Assembly (NCBI GenBank): GCA_001897525.1 | Contig: MKTB01000010.1 | Location: 152,794 to 216,793 of the forward strand | Length of the DNA: 64,000 nt | Direction: 5' to 3' | Source of the DNA: Bacteroidetes bacterium 43-16 | GTDB taxonomy: Bacteria > Bacteroidota > Bacteroidia > Chitinophagales > Chitinophagaceae | Shown: positions 4,284 through 28,823 of the stretch, piece by piece | How the letters are laid out: every line of letters starts with the position of its first letter | Position numbering within the stretch: position 1 is the first letter of the stretch | Notes under the pieces: model-generated | Seen by the model: the letters and a program-made list of their open reading frames with translations, nothing else | Databases searched by the model: none | What the model was told of the DNA's origin: nothing | Made by a program: the position numbers and the translations under genes

Positions 4284-5087
4284 ATGAGAGCAATATGGAC
4301 AGGGGCCATTGGCTTCGGACTGGTGAACATACCTATAAAAATATATACCGCTACGGATACAGGACACATTGATCTTGATATGCTGGATAGCCGCGATCAC
4401 GCCAATATTAACTTCAAAAGGGTAAATGCCAAGACGGGTAAGGAGGTAGCCTGGGAAGATATCGTAAAAGGCTTCCTGAAGAACGACCGCTACATTATAC
4501 TCGAAGAGGAAGATTTCGAATCTGCCCTTCCTGAAAAATCTAAAATATTATCTATCGACAGTTTTGTAAAAGAGCAGGAAATTGACAGTATTTATTTTGA
4601 AAATCCTTATTTCCTGGAACCTCAGAAAGGTGGTGAAGCGGCTTACAGCCTGCTCTTGCGCTCGCTGATGCAAACCAAAATGGTTGCCGTAGGCACTTTT
4701 GTATTGCGGCAGACGGAGGCATTGTGCCTCGTAAGGGTATATGACGATAACATCCTGCTACTGCACCGGCTGCGCTTCCATGAAGAGATCAGAAGCTATA
4801 AAGATCTGAAAATACCTGCGCATAAAGCACCCAAACCTGCCGAACTGAAAATGGCTAAAACCCTGATCAAAGAATACACAGCTTCTTTTGATCCTGCTGC
4901 TTATAAGAATAATTACCAGAAAGCGCTTATGCGCATCATTAACCAAAAATCAAAAGGTAAACAGGTAAGCAGGAAAGCTGCTCCGGTTAATGATACTAAA
5001 GTTACCGACCTGATGGCGCAATTGAAAGCAAGCCTGAATAAGCCCAAAGCAAGCCTGGCTAAAACTAAAAGAAAAACCAAAGCCTGA
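4284..5087 (+). CDS. ku: Non-homologous end joining protein Ku
   Basis: Bacterial Ku binds double-strand DNA ends as a homodimer and recruits LigD. The product begins with the canonical MRAIWTGAIGFGLVNIPIKI and continues through the Ku core beta-barrel, with family landmarks such as VNAKTGKEVAWEDIVKGF. It ends in a Lys-rich tail (KPKASLAKTKRKTKA), typical of bacterial Ku C-termini. The ATG at 4284 was chosen because family members start at MRAIW; the frame is open back to 4167, but those 39 extra residues are unlike Ku. Length is 267 aa, normal for the family. The stop lies 5 bases before ligD, so the two are almost certainly co-transcribed and translationally close. Confidence 0.95.
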   Translation: MRAIWTGAIGFGLVNIPIKIYTATDTGHIDLDMLDSRDHANINFKRVNAKTGKEVAWEDIVKGFLKNDRYIILEEEDFESALPEKSKILSIDSFVKEQEIDSIYFENPYFLEPQKGGEAAYSLLLRSLMQTKMVAVGTFVLRQTEALCLVRVYDDNILLLHRLRFHEEIRSYKDLKIPAHKAPKPAELKMAKTLIKEYTASFDPAAYKNNYQKALMRIINQKSKGKQVSRKAAPVNDTKVTDLMAQLKASLNKPKASLAKTKRKTKA

Positions 5088-20397: not shown

Positions 20398-20429
20398 TTT
20401 GCCTACCTTCCGGAAGGTTTGTACATTTG
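20398..20429 (+). promoter_or_regulatory. Promoter with operator palindrome for the TetR-FabF-Ogt operon
   Basis: TTTG (20398-20401), 20-base spacer, TACATTTG (20422-20429) match the Bacteroidota primary sigma consensus. A perfect 14-base palindrome, ACCTTCCGGAAGGT (20405-20418), sits inside the spacer, where a bound dimer would block polymerase. TetR family regulators usually bind such sites and repress their own gene, which starts 13 bases downstream at 20443. Confidence 0.8.
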
Positions 20430-20442
20430 ATAAAATTTAAAG

Positions 20443-20997
20443 ATGAATACCAGGGCACAGATCATACAGCATGCAGATAAACTCATCAGGAATGTAGGCT
20501 ACAATGCATTTAGCTTTGTAGATATTGCGCGCAGCGTGGGCATCAAAAAACCATCTGTACACCATCACTTCCCACATAAAGCTGATCTGTGCATGGCAGT
20601 GATCCAATATCACATAGATCATTTAAAGGCTACCCGGGAAAGTACGCTACAACAAAGTCCGCTGCAACAACTGGAGCGCTTCCTGGCCATATACCAGGAA
20701 ATAAAAGCGCAGCAGCAAATCTGCATTGTAGGAGCTCTGTCTACCGATTATAATACCCTGGAGCCTGCAGTACAGGAAAAATTACAGGAGTTTTCTGCGC
20801 AGATGATCGATTGGGTCAGCAGCTTTTTAAAAGCCGGTAAGACAGAAGGAACCTTTCACTTTAAACAGGCAGCACGCACAAAAGCCATTATGCTGATCTC
20901 CGGTATGCTGGCGATCGTGCAGCTTACCCGCCTCACCCATGAAGAAGATTTCAGGTTAATGATAAAAGCAGTGAAGCAGGAGCTGCAGAACAAATAA
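20443..20997 (+). CDS. TetR/AcrR-family transcriptional regulator
   Basis: N-terminal helix-turn-helix of the TetR type (ADKLIRNVGYNAFSFVDIARSVGI, recognition helix KKPSVHHHFPHKADL). A helical ligand-binding domain of about 130 aa follows. 184 aa is typical. The palindrome in its own promoter is a probable autoregulatory operator. It is 15 bases from the downstream fabF-like gene, so it likely controls fatty-acid or alkylation-repair genes in this operon. The ligand is unknown. Confidence 0.85.
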   Translation: MNTRAQIIQHADKLIRNVGYNAFSFVDIARSVGIKKPSVHHHFPHKADLCMAVIQYHIDHLKATRESTLQQSPLQQLERFLAIYQEIKAQQQICIVGALSTDYNTLEPAVQEKLQEFSAQMIDWVSSFLKAGKTEGTFHFKQAARTKAIMLISGMLAIVQLTRLTHEEDFRLMIKAVKQELQNK

Positions 20998-23223: not shown

Positions 23224-23255
23224 TTTGTCTACTATTTTAGTAGACTATATATTTG
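23224..23255 (+). promoter_or_regulatory. Promoter of the sulfur operon with an embedded palindrome
   Basis: TTTG (23224-23227), a 20-base spacer and TATATTTG (23248-23255) match the Bacteroidota promoter form. The spacer carries a perfect inverted repeat, GTCTACTATTTTAGTAGAC (23227-23245), with 8-base arms and a 3-base centre. It is probably the operator of a regulator not encoded next door. Transcription should start a few bases after 23255. Confidence 0.75.
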
Positions 23256-23278
23256 CATCATCATTCATCAACAAAGTC

Positions 23279-23416
23279 ATGATGATCATCTTTAAAAGCA
23301 TTCATAACATGAACCGGAACAATAACGCTATAATACCTCCTGTTGCTACACATCACAACATGATGCGAAAGCAGTATATGGTATGCTGTTGTATGTCCCC
23401 AGGATGTTGTCGTTAA
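23279..23416 (+). CDS. Cys-rich leader peptide
   Basis: A short frame in the 5' leader. It runs from ATG 23279 (45 aa) or the internal ATG at 23360 (18 aa, starting MMRKQYMV). The last eleven residues are VCCCMSPGCCR, so five of the last ten codons encode Cys. It ends 34 bases before an intrinsic terminator. The Cys cluster and its position mark it as a regulatory leader peptide whose translation rate reports Cys-tRNA charging. No similarity to any known structured protein. Confidence 0.65.
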   Translation: MMIIFKSIHNMNRNNNAIIPPVATHHNMMRKQYMVCCCMSPGCCR

Positions 23417-23462
23417 GAAGTACCTCAATAAATATATTGATCAGATCAGGGGCTTTACGACA
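23408..23462 (+). promoter_or_regulatory. Predicted antiterminator pairing
   Basis: TGTCGTTAAG (23408-23417), which spans the last Cys codon, Arg codon and stop of the leader peptide, can pair with CTTTACGACA (23453-23462) at 9 of 10 positions. The second strand overlaps the 5' arm of the terminator (23451-23459), so the two structures are mutually exclusive. A ribosome stalled on the CCC codons (23384-23392) would leave this strand free; a ribosome at the stop codon would cover it. Confidence 0.6.
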
Positions 23463-23482
23463 TAGACGTGAAGCCTTTTTTT
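23451..23482 (+). terminator. Intrinsic terminator (attenuator) in the leader
   Basis: GGCTTTACG (23451-23459) pairs with CGTGAAGCC (23467-23475), nine pairs including one G-U, around a 7-base loop, followed by seven T (23476-23482). It sits 19 bases before the first structural gene, where a terminator is only useful as an attenuator. Confidence 0.8.
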
Positions 23483-23501
23483 ATTTAAAACAAACGAACA
23501 A

Positions 23502-24527
23502 ATGAATGCGTTAAGATTCAAATGGCTATCGGCCATTGCTTTCACTAATATATACGTAATATGGGGATTGACCTTTATCGCCATATCCTTTGGCCTGGAT
23601 GGTTTCCCGCCTTTTGTACTTTCGGGCCTGCGTTTCCTGGTTGCCGGTCTTATACTCATCAGCTACCTGCTTGCTAAGGGAGAAAAGGCGCTTAATCGCA
23701 TCAACTGGCGAAAAAATGCCATCACCGGTATGCTGGTACTCACCGGCGGCACCGGGCTTGTGGGCTGGGGAGAGCAGTATGTAAGTGCTGCTGAGGCCTC
23801 TATTGCTATTGCTACCGGGCCATTCTGGTTTATTGCTATCGACCGTAAGAACTGGCGCAAATATTTTTCGGACAAGTGGATTCCTATCGGGCTTTTACTA
23901 GGGTTTTCAGGCTTGCTGCTTTTCCTGGGCGGAAGTGTTCTGCATAGCCAGGCATCCTCAGCATCAGGCAATATACGCATCATCGCCTTTATCGTATTGG
24001 CCTTAAGCTCTATCAGCTGGGTATTGGGCTCTTTATATTCCAAGAACAATGCTGCTGACCAGTCGACGTTGATGAATATTGCACAGCAACTTATTGTTGC
24101 AGGAATAGCTGCTTTCCTCATTGCTTCTTTCAGAAGCGAATGGCAGGAGTTCTCTTTAGCACAGGTACCGCTGCATTCCTGGCTGGGCCTGCTCTTCCTG
24201 GTCTTCTTCGGATCGGTTGTGGCTTATCTTTCTTATATCTGGCTCTTGTCGGTAAAGCCTGCAGCACTGGTGAGTACACATACTTATATCAACCCTATTG
24301 TCACCGTTCTTGCAGGCTGGATCATCAGCAGGCAGGCCATCAACCCGAAACAGCTCAGTGGATTATTGATCATCCTTACCGGGGTCTTGCTCACGAATAC
24401 AACGAAATATTTTAAACTATCCAGGAGAAAGAAAGTAAAATTCAGAAGAGCGATTGCCGCTACCGCACAATTGGGAAGGGTCTATCACCCGATTCATCAA
24501 TTGCCGCCTGCTACATCGCTTCATTAA
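23502..24527 (+). CDS. EamA-family (drug/metabolite transporter) exporter
   Basis: Ten predicted transmembrane helices in two EamA repeats: the first starts AFTNIYVIWGLTFIAISFG, the second spans RIIAFIVLALSSISWVLGSL to LLSVKPAALVSTHTYINPIV. 341 aa is slightly long because of a basic C-terminal tail (KLSRRKKVKFRR...). EamA proteins such as E. coli YdeD export cysteine pathway metabolites; given the operon, a cysteine, O-acetylserine or related thiol substrate is plausible. It is the first gene after the attenuator and is followed at 14 bases by the JAMM-like gene. Confidence 0.85.
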   Translation: MNALRFKWLSAIAFTNIYVIWGLTFIAISFGLDGFPPFVLSGLRFLVAGLILISYLLAKGEKALNRINWRKNAITGMLVLTGGTGLVGWGEQYVSAAEASIAIATGPFWFIAIDRKNWRKYFSDKWIPIGLLLGFSGLLLFLGGSVLHSQASSASGNIRIIAFIVLALSSISWVLGSLYSKNNAADQSTLMNIAQQLIVAGIAAFLIASFRSEWQEFSLAQVPLHSWLGLLFLVFFGSVVAYLSYIWLLSVKPAALVSTHTYINPIVTVLAGWIISRQAINPKQLSGLLIILTGVLLTNTTKYFKLSRRKKVKFRRAIAATAQLGRVYHPIHQLPPATSLH

Positions 24528-24541
24528 AAAAACAACCAACT

Positions 24542-25015
24542 ATGCTATACATAACAGAACTGGTAAAACGCCAGATTATTGAAACGGGTATCCTTAATTT
24601 CCCGGAGGCAGGCATCGGTTTCCTGCTGGGCTTTGAGAAGCGCGATATACGCATTATTGAAAAGATCGTGATCAGCGACATTTACCTGGATGCGGATCAT
24701 TTCTTGCCCGTCACGGCTCAGGATCAGCTGGATGCTGCCTTACTGGGTGAAGAAGAAGGATTAAGTGTGCTGGGTATATTTTACACTTTACCCAATAAGC
24801 CTTCTGTGCCCGAACATATTGACTATGCTGCTTTACCTGATCACTATTCCATCCTGCTGCTTTCGGTCTGGGGAGGGGACTTCATCAACCTGCAATCCTG
24901 GAGAATGAACGCTCAAAAAGAAAGGGTACAGGAAAGCATAGCGATCGTCAGCGATCAATATTATGAACCATTAGTGCCCAAAAGCAGTACACCGTTTTCT
25001 ATAAATTATAATTAA
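24542..25015 (+). CDS. Mov34/JAMM-like protein with a lost metal site
   Basis: 157 aa with the layout of the small bacterial JAMM (M67) isopeptidases: VKRQIIETGILNFPEAGIGFLL, ISDIYLDADHFLP, LSVLGIFYTLPNKPSVPEHID, YSILLLSVWGG. The metal-binding motif is usually HSHP...PSxxD. Here the two His are replaced: the segment reads FYTLPNKPSVPEHID, while the downstream Asp and Pro-Ser remain. It is probably catalytically dead. Active M67 proteins release sulfur-carrier peptides in cysteine synthesis, so this could be a regulatory or sulfur-carrier-binding relative. Confidence 0.65.
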   Translation: MLYITELVKRQIIETGILNFPEAGIGFLLGFEKRDIRIIEKIVISDIYLDADHFLPVTAQDQLDAALLGEEEGLSVLGIFYTLPNKPSVPEHIDYAALPDHYSILLLSVWGGDFINLQSWRMNAQKERVQESIAIVSDQYYEPLVPKSSTPFSINYN

Positions 25016-25028
25016 TAAAAAGGACCTG

Positions 25029-25103
25029 AGTGCTGTGGCCGAGTGGTTTAAGCATAGCTCTGCAAAAGCTAATACACCGGTTCGATCCCGGTCAGCACTT
25101 CCA
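25029..25103 (+). tRNA. tRNA-Cys(GCA) inside the sulfur operon, CCA present in the DNA
   Basis: A complete cloverleaf is visible. The acceptor stem AGTGCTG/CAGCACT has seven pairs. The anticodon stem TAGCT/AGCTA encloses CTGCAAA, with GCA at 25062-25064. A 4-base variable loop precedes the T arm, ACCGG/CCGGT with loop TTCGATC. The discriminator is U (25100), as required for Cys identity, and CCA follows at 25101-25103. The D stem has only two good pairs (G-C, C-G) and a C-A mismatch, so it is weaker than usual. It lies 13 bases after the JAMM-like gene and 32 bases before the peroxiredoxin, on the same strand. Confidence 0.85.
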
Positions 25104-25135: not shown

Positions 25136-25774
25136 ATGGCCACATTAAGATTAGGTGACATTGCCCCTGATTTCACTGCAGAAAGTTCTGCAGGCACGAT
25201 TAACTTCCATGATTACCTGGGTAATGGATGGGGCATTTTATTCTCCCATCCTGCAGACTTCACCCCGGTATGTACGACAGAACTTGGCGCTACAGCAAAG
25301 CTTAAAGATGCTTTTGAACAGCGCAATGTAAAAGTGATCGCGCTGAGCGTGGACACGGTAGAGAGCCACCTGGAATGGATCAAAGACATTAATGAAACGC
25401 AAAACACCAGGGTGAATTTTCCCATCATCGCGGATCATGACCGTAAGGTTTCGGAATTGTATGATTTCATCCATCCTAATGCCAGTGCTACCGCTACAGT
25501 CCGTTCGGTACTCGTCATAGGTCCGGACAAGACGGTGAAGCTGACGATTACTTACCCTGCTTCTACGGGCAGGAACTTTGATGAGATCCTGAGGGTGATA
25601 GACAGCCTGCAGCTCACGGCAGACTACCAGGTAGCCACTCCTGCCAACTGGCAACAGGGTGAAGAGGTGGTGATCACCCCGGCAGTTAAAGATGAAGATA
25701 TTGCGGCTAAGTTCCCTAAGGGCTATAGGCGTGTAAAGCCTTACCTGCGCCTGACACCGCAACCTAATTTGTAA
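25136..25774 (+). CDS. 1-Cys peroxiredoxin (Prx6 type)
   Basis: Thiol peroxidase. The catalytic block is FSHPADFTPVCTTELGA with the peroxidatic Cys at about residue 46. No resolving Cys is seen. The C-terminal extension (TPANWQQGEEVVI, GYRRVKPYLR) is that of the Prx6 subfamily. 212 aa is full length. In this operon it may protect thiols and sulfur metabolites from oxidation. The tRNA-Cys gene is directly upstream. Confidence 0.9.
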   Translation: MATLRLGDIAPDFTAESSAGTINFHDYLGNGWGILFSHPADFTPVCTTELGATAKLKDAFEQRNVKVIALSVDTVESHLEWIKDINETQNTRVNFPIIADHDRKVSELYDFIHPNASATATVRSVLVIGPDKTVKLTITYPASTGRNFDEILRVIDSLQLTADYQVATPANWQQGEEVVITPAVKDEDIAAKFPKGYRRVKPYLRLTPQPNL

Positions 25775-25834: not shown

Positions 25835-26305
25835 ATGCTAAAGAAAGACATCGCTCATTATTATGCGGATGAGCACGTGGTAAGGATCATAGCAGGCCTG
25901 GTCGTGGTTATTAGCACTCTGGCCCTGATCGCTCATGCTCACCTGGCTGTACTTTTCCTCGTCATTGATTTTGCATTGCGCGCTTTTACCTTTCAGCCAT
26001 CGCCTGTAGCAGCACTGGCCAAACTAATTGCGCGTGCGCTCCAGTTGCAACCCTACCCTATTTTCGCCGCACCTAAACGTTTTGCCGCGGGCCTGGGCTT
26101 TGGATTTTCGCTGGCCGTGTTCATATTACTGTCCCTAAACCTGTATACGGCTGCATGGCTTACGGGTGGCTTACTGATCGCCTGTGCTGTATTGGAAGCG
26201 GCCTTCAGGATATGTGCAGGCTGTTATATTTTTTCCTGGATCGTTGCCCCGGTTATGCGCAGCATCCACAAAAAAGAGATGAAGCAGACCCAAAATGAAA
26301 CATAA
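25835..26305 (+). CDS. DUF4395 membrane protein
   Basis: 156 aa with four transmembrane segments (VVRIIAGLVVVISTLALIAH, LAVLFLVIDFALRAF, FGFSLAVFILLSLNLYTAAW, LLIACAVLEAAFRICAGCYIF). The pattern fits DUF4395. A CAGC (CxxC) lies at the end of the last helix and could carry a disulfide. Members often sit beside thioredoxin, rhodanese or other sulfur genes, which agrees with this operon. Function not established. Confidence 0.75.
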   Translation: MLKKDIAHYYADEHVVRIIAGLVVVISTLALIAHAHLAVLFLVIDFALRAFTFQPSPVAALAKLIARALQLQPYPIFAAPKRFAAGLGFGFSLAVFILLSLNLYTAAWLTGGLLIACAVLEAAFRICAGCYIFSWIVAPVMRSIHKKEMKQTQNET

Positions 26306-26322: not shown

Positions 26323-27351
26323 ATGATACAGTTAAAAAATATTTCGAAAACTTTCCGGCAGAAAAATCATGCGCTTAAGGTCCTGGATGACATCAGCATA
26401 AATATTACAGAAGGTGCCATCACCGGGATCATAGGGTCTTCGGGCGCAGGAAAAAGTACTTTATTAAGAAGTATTAATTTACTGGAGCGGCCGGACAAAG
26501 GGGAAGTGTTCATCCGGGGCAAATGCCTGTCTGCTTTAAGCAATAAAGAGTTGGCGGGCGAGCGGAGGAAGATCGGCATGATCTTCCAGCATTTCAACCT
26601 ACTGCATTCCAGAACGGTGTTTGAGAATATAGCCTTGCCTATGGAGTTGGAAGGACAATCAAAAACGGAGATCAGAGAAAAAGTACAGGAGCTGCTTCAG
26701 CTTGTGGCCCTGGAAGACAAAAGGGATATTTATCCCAAACATCTTTCCGGCGGGCAAAAGCAAAGGGTATCTATTGCCCGGGCTTTAGCGAATGATCCTT
26801 ACCTCCTGCTCTGCGATGAGGCCACCAGCGCTTTGGACCCGTCCAGTACACAAAGTATCCTGAAGTTGCTGGCGGACATCAACCGGCAATCAGGGATTAC
26901 CATTGTATTGATCACGCATGAAATGCAGGTGCTAAAGTCGATTTGTACTGATGTGGCCTTGATACAGGCAGGAAAAATAGTGGCCCGGGGAGCACTGCAG
27001 ACCTTGTTGCAGGCAGAGCAGGAAACTTTATTTAAACAATTTATACATACAGATATCATGAATTTACCACCGGAATTAGCCAAAGGGCTGCAGGCGGAAT
27101 ATGCACAAGGCCTGCACCCCTTAATAGAAGTTGAGTTGAATGGATATGTACGCTTTGAAGAACTCATACGGGCGATGGACACTTATTCCCGGGTGCCTTA
27201 CAAGGTAATCAAAGCGGACATTGAATACCTGGGCAAGGCTAACTATGGCAAGCTGCTCTTATTGCTGCAGGGCTCAACAGAAGATGAGGCCAGAACAATC
27301 GCTTATTTCAAAACCAATAATATTAAAAACACGATCAAAGGATATGCCTGA
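26323..27351 (+). CDS. metN: Methionine ABC transporter ATP-binding protein
   Basis: ATPase of the D-/L-methionine importer. Walker A is GSSGAGKSTLL, the signature is LSGGQKQRVSIARAL and Walker B is LLLCDEATSALDP. The C-terminal segment (about 265-342; VELNGYVRFEELIRAM...) is the NIL regulatory domain of MetN, which binds methionine and inhibits transport. 342 aa is standard. Its last codons overlap the start of metI (ATG at 27344, stop at 27351), so the two are translationally coupled. Confidence 0.9.
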   Translation: MIQLKNISKTFRQKNHALKVLDDISINITEGAITGIIGSSGAGKSTLLRSINLLERPDKGEVFIRGKCLSALSNKELAGERRKIGMIFQHFNLLHSRTVFENIALPMELEGQSKTEIREKVQELLQLVALEDKRDIYPKHLSGGQKQRVSIARALANDPYLLLCDEATSALDPSSTQSILKLLADINRQSGITIVLITHEMQVLKSICTDVALIQAGKIVARGALQTLLQAEQETLFKQFIHTDIMNLPPELAKGLQAEYAQGLHPLIEVELNGYVRFEELIRAMDTYSRVPYKVIKADIEYLGKANYGKLLLLLQGSTEDEARTIAYFKTNNIKNTIKGYA

Positions 27352-28000
27352 CAGTTCTTTCCTGCCGCTTATTTTAAAGGGTTTATGGGAAACTATTTTT
27401 ATGAGCCTGGCTTCGGGAGCTTTGGGCTTTGCCATAGGCCTGCCGGCAGGTATCTTACTCTACCTTACCCGTAAGGGTCAATTGCTGGACAATGCTTTTT
27501 GCTATCGTACGGTCTCTGTGCTGGTGAATATATTCCGTTCTATTCCTTTTATTATCCTCATTGTATGGATGATTCCTTTCACGCGGATGCTCACGGGTAC
27601 TTCGATCGGGCTAAAAGCGGCACTGGTACCGCTGAGTATAGGTGCAGCGCCTTTTATAGCAAGGCTTACAGAGAATTCATTATCGGAGGTACCTGCCGGG
27701 CTTGTTGAAACGGGCAGGGCCGCAGGGGCAAGTATCCTGCAGATCATTATGAAAATACTGTTGCCGGAGGCGCTGCCTTCGCTGATCAATAATGCAAGCA
27801 TTACATTAATCACTTTAGTGGGCTACTCGGCCATGGGCGGTGCTGTAGGTGCCGGCGGACTGGGGCAGATAGGTTATCAATATGGCTATATAGGCTATGA
27901 TGCTTTCATTATGAACACGGTACTGCTCTTGCTCGTCGGACTGGTATTCCTGATCCAGTATACGGGCAACAGGCTTGCTAAAAAATTTGACCACAGATAA
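27344..28000 (+). CDS. metI: Methionine ABC transporter permease
   Basis: Membrane component of the MetNIQ importer: 218 aa, five transmembrane helices and the permease coupling loop VPAGLVETGRAAGASILQII. The start MPDSSFLPLILKGLWETIFM at 27344 overlaps metN by 8 bases. The longer frame from 27221 lies inside metN and is not used. Confidence 0.9.
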   Translation: MPDSSFLPLILKGLWETIFMSLASGALGFAIGLPAGILLYLTRKGQLLDNAFCYRTVSVLVNIFRSIPFIILIVWMIPFTRMLTGTSIGLKAALVPLSIGAAPFIARLTENSLSEVPAGLVETGRAAGASILQIIMKILLPEALPSLINNASITLITLVGYSAMGGAVGAGGLGQIGYQYGYIGYDAFIMNTVLLLLVGLVFLIQYTGNRLAKKFDHR

Positions 28001-28016
28001 AAAAAGATCGACAAGA

Positions 28017-28823
28017 ATGAAAAAATTAATCGTTCCAGGTATTGCTGCGCTCTTCTTATGGAGTGCTTGTGGCAACCCTGAAAATAAAAATGCGCATCAA
28101 CTGAAAGTAGGCGTGAGCAGCGGACCGGAATATGAACTGGCGCTTACTGCACAAAAGGTAGCGAAAGAACAGTTTGGCCTGGATGTGGAGCTCATTACTT
28201 TTACGGAATATGTGTTGCCCAATGAGGCGCTGAATAACGGGGACATAGACTTGAATGTGTTCCAGCATATACCTTACCTGGAAGCTCAATCAAAACAGAG
28301 AGGTTATCAACTTTCTGTAGTGGGCAATACCTTTGTGTATCCTATTGCCGCTTATTCCAGGAAAATCAGCCAGGCTGATGAGTTGAAAACCGGCAGCAGC
28401 ATTGCTATTCCTAATGACCCTACGAATGGAGGCCGGGCATTATTGTTATTGCAAAAGAACGGTCTCCTCACTTTAAAGGAAGGTACCGGTTTATTGCCTA
28501 AACTTACAGATATCATTGCTAACCCGAAACAATTGAATATTGTAGCAATAGAAGCGCCGCAATTGCCCAGGATATTGGATGATGCGCAGATCTCCATTGC
28601 TATTATCAATAATAATTTTGCGGCACAGGCCGGGCTGAGTAACTCAGCCCATGCCCTGTTCCGGGAAGATAGTAGCTCGCCTTACGTAAATGTGATTGTG
28701 GCTCAAACGGCCAAAAAGGAGGAAAAGGCGATACAGGAGTTTGTAAAGGCCTACCAGTCGGATGCAGTTGCTGCCAAAGCAACGCAACTTTTTAAAGGAG
28801 GTGCCATTAAGGGCTGGCAATAG
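28017..28823 (+). CDS. metQ: Methionine ABC transporter substrate-binding lipoprotein
   Basis: NlpA/MetQ family. Lipobox Cys after FLWSAC in the signal peptide (MKKLIVPGIAALFLWSAC). The body has the family blocks LKVGVSSGPEYELALTAQK, LNVFQHIPYLEAQ and IAIPNDPTNGGRALLLLQK. 268 aa. Starts 16 bases after metI. The substrate is probably methionine, though related sulfur amino acids are possible. Last gene of the operon, followed by a terminator at 28871. Confidence 0.9.
   Translation: MKKLIVPGIAALFLWSACGNPENKNAHQLKVGVSSGPEYELALTAQKVAKEQFGLDVELITFTEYVLPNEALNNGDIDLNVFQHIPYLEAQSKQRGYQLSVVGNTFVYPIAAYSRKISQADELKTGSSIAIPNDPTNGGRALLLLQKNGLLTLKEGTGLLPKLTDIIANPKQLNIVAIEAPQLPRILDDAQISIAIINNNFAAQAGLSNSAHALFREDSSSPYVNVIVAQTAKKEEKAIQEFVKAYQSDAVAAKATQLFKGGAIKGWQ

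Follow-up and report, generated by a model that had tools for sequence, protein, structure and literature searches.

The transport operon that begins with an EamA-family gene at position 23502 of the window (the whole 64-kb stretch of DNA analyzed here) is very probably preceded by a ribosome-mediated transcription attenuator that has both cysteine and methionine control codons. An initial annotation of this DNA had described the site as a cysteine attenuator. The attenuator geometry is borne out by the anatomy of the site and by its conservation, and the signal, which had been read as Cys only, is here amended to Cys plus Met. The site represents a known kind of attenuator in a new form, with Cys and Met codons, sometimes several units in series, and a position before uptake genes and metY; the regulation itself is predicted.

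Anatomy of the leader and its operon

The features of the leader and of the operon that follows it are listed here by position in the window.

23224-23255, + strand: promoter-like sequence of the Bacteroidetes type (pattern match), with TTTG at 23224-23227, a 20-base spacer, and TATATTTG at 23248-23255
23227-23245, no strand assigned: palindrome GTCTACTATTTTAGTAGAC, in the spacer of the promoter-like sequence
23279-23416, + strand: leader ORF of 45 codons, from the first ATG after the promoter-like sequence; conserved in kind in relatives
23384-23395, + strand: putative control codons Cys-Cys-Cys-Met, supported by the enrichment and clustering of Cys and Met in relatives
23405-23417, + strand: putative 5' half of the antiterminator (region 2), comprising the second Cys pair, an Arg codon, and the stop
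23448-23478, + strand: intrinsic terminator hairpin of 12 pairs, with a T run continuing to 23482; its 5' arm at 23453-23462 is the antiterminator partner
23502-24527, + strand: EamA-family (DMT) transporter, the first gene (Pfam PF00892; best NCBIfam match YedA-like, below cut-off)
24542-25015, + strand: ORF of 157 amino acids, lying between EamA and the tRNA gene, without a family assignment in Pfam or NCBIfam
25029-25103, + strand: tRNA-Cys(GCA), separated by 13 bases from the ORF before it and by 32 from the one after
25136-25774, + strand: peroxiredoxin (AhpC/TSA with 1-Cys C-terminal domain; Pfam/NCBIfam)
25835-26305, + strand: DUF4395 protein (Pfam)
26323-27351, + strand: MetN, ATP-binding protein of the MetNIQ importer (ABC_tran and NIL; best NCBIfam match TIGR02314, below cut-off)
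27344-28000, + strand: MetI permease (NF008049, above cut-off)
28017-28823, + strand: MetQ substrate-binding lipoprotein, start codon uncertain (TIGR00363, above cut-off)

All coordinates in the initial annotation hold, those of the short frame ending VCCCMSPGCCR as well as those of the pairing segments, the terminator, and the EamA start. The Cys codon run that it placed at 23384-23392 is present as TGC TGT TGT, with ATG directly behind it at 23393-23395; a second pair of Cys codons lies at 23405-23410 and the TAA stop at 23414-23416. The segment TGTCGTTAAG (23408-23417) is complementary to CTTTACGACA (23453-23462) at 9 of 10 positions, as had been claimed, and the T run ends at 23482, 19 bases before the EamA ATG at 23502. 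The second Cys pair, which lies inside the antiterminator, is probably kept for pairing. The frame that opens at the ATG at 23279 encodes MMIIFKSIHNMNRNNNAIIPPVATHHNMMRKQYMVCCCMSPGCCR, and an alternative start at 23360 would give an 18-codon leader.

The sequence at 23224-23255 was named after the Bacteroidetes promoter consensus. Because this pattern has 4 matches in the window compared to 2.8 expected by chance, its identification as a promoter is suggestive only. The first ATG of the leader is 23 bases past the promoter-like sequence, so the leader is probably not leaderless as the mycobacterial type is. The palindrome in the spacer is a possible operator; it also appears on the list from the terminator-like scan, where its T run is poor. 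Palindromes resembling GTCTACTATTTTAGTAGAC were found within 700 bases upstream at 22 of 79 EamA loci with a strict pattern, and some Chryseobacterium genomes have near-identical copies 5' of the same operon, suggesting that a repressor may act on top of attenuation. A strict search for the palindrome in five genomes of the genus did not find a second copy. Elsewhere in the window, another promoter-like match at 20398-20429 holds CCTACCTTCCGGAAGG and lies just before a gene at 20443 that is presumably TetR-like.

The proposed mechanism is that RNA polymerase transcribes the leader with a ribosome translating behind it. When charged tRNA is ample, the ribosome would reach the stop and cover 23405-23417, the terminator at 23448-23478 would form, and the genes from EamA to MetNIQ would be off. 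A ribosome slowed at the Cys and Met codons (23384-23395) would leave region 2 free to pair with the 5' arm of the terminator before the 3' arm is made, and transcription would proceed into the transport operon. Translation of the leader, stalling of the ribosome, and the direction and size of the response are all predicted from sequence. Folding calculations that place a ribosome at the Cys codons give the antiterminator (-14.4 kcal/mol) for the segment between 23400 and the terminator loop; when the ribosome is placed at the stop instead, only the terminator forms (-15.0). In freed window RNA that includes the 3' arm, the terminator wins at equilibrium (-18.5 kcal/mol), and the antiterminator is the best fold only until the 3' arm exists. 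Since the terminator is the better structure at equilibrium, the mechanism must be kinetic, i.e., dependent on timing.

The single window proves little by itself; the case is made by conservation. In number, terminator-like sites in this region do not exceed those in shuffles (7 found, 6.5 expected), the fold z-score of the leader is -1.6, and the energy of pairing between the leader end and the terminator arm (-13.8 kcal/mol) was equaled by 60 of 5,000 shuffled arms. A leader detector, which requires a Cys/Met-rich short ORF, a hairpin, a T run, and a competing pairing, was run on both strands of the 64-kb window and found only this site.

The downstream genes in the initial annotation (peroxiredoxin, DUF4395, MetNIQ, tRNA-Cys, and EamA) were confirmed, while its label of exporter for EamA is doubtful. 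The family names that EamA matches most resemble exporters, all below cut-off. An exporter would be illogical in an operon that is induced by starvation and whose other genes serve uptake; its usual position as the first gene of an EamA-MetNIQ operon suggests a possible importer. From its predicted joint induction with MetNIQ, we expect it to have a role in import or another sulfur-sparing role. MetN-MetI-MetQ lies behind EamA in 66 of 80 loci, DUF4395 plus MetNIQ in 1, and MetN plus MetI in 1, and only EamA was matched in 12. An amino-acid permease is found behind EamA in L158, L162, and L168 (L168 by sequence only), and a Na+/H+ antiporter family protein in L165. Where MetNIQ has no adjacent EamA, a leader was found at 3 of 9 loci (L081, L083, and L082). 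At L082, a Cys/Met leader on the minus strand near 4511 is parted from MetN by a gene that was recognized as transposase-like by eye from its sequence.

A consensus scan for + strand terminator-like sites found none from the end of EamA to the peroxiredoxin, and a weak six-pair site lies inside EamA at 23814. The 157-amino-acid ORF has no counterpart and the peroxiredoxin no match in the relatives' EamA loci searched. The window's genome contains no other match to the tRNA-Cys sequence. No tRNA was present in the EamA regions of six relatives, and among the 30 best places in the family matching this tRNA, only that of the window has these neighbors (within ∼1.5 kb). The arrangement therefore looks special to the window's lineage. 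If attenuation operates as proposed, a shortage of charged tRNA-Cys would raise tRNA-Cys itself, closing a loop on what is apparently the only tRNA-Cys gene in the genome. Furthermore, the window's genome has no match to PF01507 (CysH/CysD) above the curated cut-off (20.7 bits versus 22.5), so the host may depend on organic sulfur, the uptake of which may be vital. CysH/CysD contexts contained no leader.

Conservation of the leader upstream of EamA

EamA was used as the search query and retrieved orthologs in the window's family, Chryseobacterium, Flavobacterium, Flavihumibacter, and others. The initial annotation had predicted that relatives would conserve the Cys codons and the competing pairing, and both are conserved in the window's family and in other Bacteroidia. 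A script identified a short ORF with at least 2 Cys codons followed by an intrinsic terminator upstream of the EamA ortholog in 79 of 85 loci, which represent 83 genomes as two are present twice (L034/L144 and L035/L168). Four of the six loci missed by the script were found by eye to have a leader with a single Cys codon and several Met codons, e.g., MMMFNCMP. Only L164 and L166, both from metagenome-assembled genomes (MAGs), had no leader among the 85. Within the window's family, leaders precede the EamA orthologs of five genomes at 50 to 69% identity (G125, G101, G001, G029, and G099). No leader was found at the EamA genes of G051 and G137 (∼50% identity; loci L038 and L040) or at 22 EamA loci of lower identity (L041 to L062).

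The window has one attenuator, and at least two occur in series at 15 of the 85 loci (13 genomes). Taibaiella chishuiensis (L162) has three Cys-rich leaders in series ∼420 bases before EamA, the third with a poor T run in its terminator. Read-through of such tandem leaders would need stalling at each.

The detector has high specificity. Applied to both strands of 80 EamA loci (2.0 Mb), it returned 77 matches upstream of EamA, covering 72 of the 80 loci, and 4 elsewhere, all four of which are tandem leaders 5' of a metY-like gene. A tblastn search of 294 family genomes with the leader peptide gave nothing readable as a leader among 29 loci other than the window, because the peptide sequence is not conserved. 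The pattern TGYTGYATG-gap-T6 was searched in 15 genomes, and none of the 30 loci taken from it was called a leader by the detector; this search is noisy, since its backward control matched every genome, its gap range excludes the window's own leader, and it is uninformative on further leaders in the genome. A class-wide search with EamA (E ≤ 1e−90) matched 6 of 395 genomes, namely, the window, G029, G624, and three without a leader, and the G624 match (L349) is a leader already seen as L165.

The competing pairing co-varies across genomes

The pairing between leader end and terminator was assessed in 30 leaders by comparing each leader's own terminator arm with the arms of the others. The leader segment extended 15 nt upstream and 12 nt downstream of the first base of the stop codon. 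Leader ends paired with their own 5' arms at a mean of -10.49 kcal/mol compared to -7.08 kcal/mol (standard deviation, 0.47) with arms exchanged, a difference reached in 0 of 20,000 permutations. The preference for the own arm holds at other segment borders, and both negative controls were null (z = +1.2 for a segment farther upstream and z = +1.6 for the 3' arm). The 30 leaders are not fully independent lineages; they were chosen from 94 after inspection, with 4 added by hand, 59 of 60 Chryseobacterium leaders omitted, and L155_0, L036_0, L036_1, L159_0, and L159_2 dropped. The result stands when these five are restored or the four hand-added leaders are removed, and it is the same with 15, 26, 29 (window removed), or 35 leaders. 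Own-arm pairing is poor for a few leaders: L037_0 ranked last, and L155_1, L162_1, and L165_0 were below the midpoint in at least one of the two rankings.

The same preference is found within Chryseobacterium alone (30 unique pairs; z = -4.15, 0 of 5,000). A two-sided change distinguishes L102, with CTGTGGA in the leader and TCTACA in the arm, from L133, with CTGCGGA and TCTGCA. The compensatory changes that the initial annotation had anticipated in the competing pairing are thus seen both as own-arm preference and in an individual pair of loci. Antiterminator and terminator are mutually exclusive, and the pairing co-varies across genomes.

These results bear on the alternative that the hairpin is an ordinary terminator, or part of a structured 5' UTR, and that the Cys-rich frame arose by chance. 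The window's own statistics would suit that explanation, as its terminator-like sites are no commoner than in shuffles and its leader's fold z-score is only -1.6. The whole arrangement is conserved, however, and no permutation in 20,000 reproduced the own-arm pairing, which refutes a chance frame as far as comparison can and leaves it extremely improbable.

For the window itself, the pairing search chose another, stronger pairing (-16.1 kcal/mol) that starts upstream of region 2 and can in part be reached by a ribosome positioned at the Cys codons. In the window's fold, a protector (1:2) hairpin is visible. Across the 30 leaders, protector pairing gave z-scores of -0.2, +1.5, and +3.2 for three regions and a weak -2.1 for a farther region. 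The region with z = +3.2, in the immediate vicinity of the control codons, gave weaker pairing than permuted sequences did, and a protector hairpin across leaders is not supported.

Cysteine and methionine codons, metY, and related systems

The last 20 residues of the leaders are 17.5% Cys and 14.6% Met, and the dipeptides CC and CM occur 50 times compared to 28.9 in shuffled peptides (0 of 2,000). Of 30 leaders, 27 have a Cys codon and 26 a Met codon 12 to 36 nt upstream of the antiterminator. The window is one of the three without a Cys codon at this distance, because the search chose the other pairing; with the pairing of the initial annotation, its Cys codons start 18 to 24 nt upstream of 23408. 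Among 41 unique Chryseobacterium leader ends, Met is present in all 41 at codon -14 and in 38 at codon -15; 37 have Cys at -10 and 39 have Met at -9, and the motif CMP is kept within the genus (Cys in 37, Met in 39, and Pro in 37 of 41). Between genera, the spacing and order of Cys and Met differ and the codon content stays. Synonymous changes among close pairs were in excess in the leader frame (0.37 versus 0.13 expected), with a smaller excess in frame +1 (0.33 versus 0.22). Nearest-neighbor pairs showed no synonymous excess, with 7 of 31 in the leader frame against 8 of 29 and 6 of 28 in the other two frames.

Because Met is enriched nearly as strongly as Cys and one leader, that of L310, has Met codons only, control is read as responding to sulfur amino-acid supply, and the signal sensed is probably the charging or supply of these amino acids. 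The relative weight of Cys and Met in the window's leader is a matter of prediction. Sensing of cysteine alone, with the Met codons arising from the start-codon region and from pairing constraints, is unlikely but deserves consideration: the window has the TGC TGT TGT run, the genome's sole match to the tRNA-Cys sequence lies in its operon, and Cys at -10 is kept in 37 of the 41 Chryseobacterium leader ends. Against it, Met is nearly as enriched, all 41 of the same ends retain Met at -14 and 38 retain it at -15, and four EamA leaders have one Cys and several Met codons. The L310 metY leader, with Met and no Cys, nevertheless has a matching antiterminator and terminator, and the gene names in the window's operon indicate methionine import.

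Cys- and Met-rich stretches can bind soft metals. The nascent peptide could therefore itself be the sensor, e.g., of copper or thiol oxidation, and arrest the ribosome irrespective of codon supply, a possibility to which the peroxiredoxin in the window's operon and the conserved CMP of Chryseobacterium would also be suited. A sensor peptide is difficult to reconcile with a Cys/Met spacing and order that vary between genera at constant codon content. Furthermore, the leaders precede MetNIQ, an amino-acid permease, or metY rather than metal genes, and the peroxiredoxin is unmatched in the relatives' EamA loci searched. We regard it as quite improbable, and codon-dependent control by Cys and Met remains the preferred reading.

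Classical attenuators, such as those of trp, his, leu, thr, and ilvGMEDA in enterobacteria, consist of a short leader ORF with runs of control codons, an antiterminator at the end of the ORF, and an intrinsic terminator before the first gene, and the thr and ilv leaders exert multi-amino-acid control. The leaders described here share the short ORF with putative control codons in runs, the antiterminator at its end, the terminator before the first gene, and predicted control by more than one amino acid. They differ in their Cys and Met codons, their transport and metY genes, their occurrence in series (15 of 85 loci), and their presence in Bacteroidota, and no general protector hairpin was seen among them.

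SAM-I riboswitches (S box, RF00162) are ligand-binding RNAs that control sulfur amino-acid genes. The leaders resemble them in the sulfur genes that they are predicted to control and in occupying the place upstream of metY that SAM-I has in relatives; they differ as predicted translation-based sensors. Some Flavobacteriaceae have the same type of leader, frequently as tandem copies, before metY (O-acetylhomoserine sulfhydrylase, TIGR01326). At the threshold used, 66 of 100 Flavobacteriaceae genomes have metY, and 65 upstream regions were examined, one gene split over two contigs being left out and L284 offering only 407 bases. SAM-I lies upstream in 45, a leader in 8, both in 0, and neither in 12, so that the two are mutually exclusive upstream of metY in these loci. 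Six of the 8 leaders were found by script, and L310 and L317 by eye as Met-run leaders with a terminator that fell below the script's Cys threshold. All six script leaders fall among the 20 loci without SAM-I, with a chance of 0.0005 that does not allow for kinship. The L310 leader, MKLNTNIMSMMMWKVSARATIM (MSMMMW), lies ∼260 to 150 bases before metY and has a terminator, whose arm contains GCCCTTGC, the full complement of GCAAGGGC at the leader's end.

Control of the window's operon by a known riboswitch or T-box gains some plausibility from these relatives, whose sulfur genes can carry SAM riboswitches (the 45 of 65 metY loci). Rfam searches of the 64-kb window, however, matched only tRNA at the gathering score, and none of the eight leader-bearing metY loci has SAM-I upstream of the gene. 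Such control is very improbable, and we retain attenuation by Cys and Met codons.

Polycysteine leader ORFs before mycobacterial sulfur genes have been reported to respond to cysteine (Canestrari et al. 2020, as cited in passages of PMC13236596 and PMC9094748). The excerpts of an earlier study, PMC1262725 (2005), predict these ORFs and note no conserved terminator, and those of PMC13236596 (2026) call the mechanism translation attenuation. Judged by these excerpts, the present leaders resemble the mycobacterial ones as short, Cys-codon-rich ORFs before sulfur genes and differ in their intrinsic terminator, co-varying antiterminator, and Met codons. The initial annotation considered such leaders little described in the phylum. 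That holds in part, since such peptides have been mentioned for Bacteroidota in a general way: passages of PMC9723704 give indications of leader-peptide attenuation upstream of operons for amino-acid biosynthesis in a flavobacterium, and passages of PMC7366714 describe leader-like short ORFs in 5' UTRs of Bacteroides thetaiotaomicron. Both concern attenuation-type leader peptides from the same taxonomic class, and the portions of text consulted name no cysteine or methionine leader. Titles and abstract openings, mostly of open-access papers, likewise yielded no Cys/Met attenuator in Bacteroidota.

We tentatively suggest, as a possibility that falls somewhat short of an even chance, that Bacteroidota have a family of Cys- and Met-codon attenuators that serves as a general translation-based sensor of sulfur amino acids, sometimes two or three in series, with a codon mix tuned to the gene and with exchange for SAM-I at metY. 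If so, a translation-based sensor could be compared in nature with a riboswitch interchangeable with it, the two being different answers to the same control problem. Unannotated short ORFs would gain a function, and EamA and DUF4395 would be tied to sulfur amino acids by regulation.

Two of the eight leader-bearing metY loci, L283 and L310, have SAM-I downstream of the gene. In 30 PF01053 contexts from a longer list, a script flag in L225 was judged a chance match, its frame being long and coding-like; the script also flagged one leader in L251 and two in L252, and these are metY-type.
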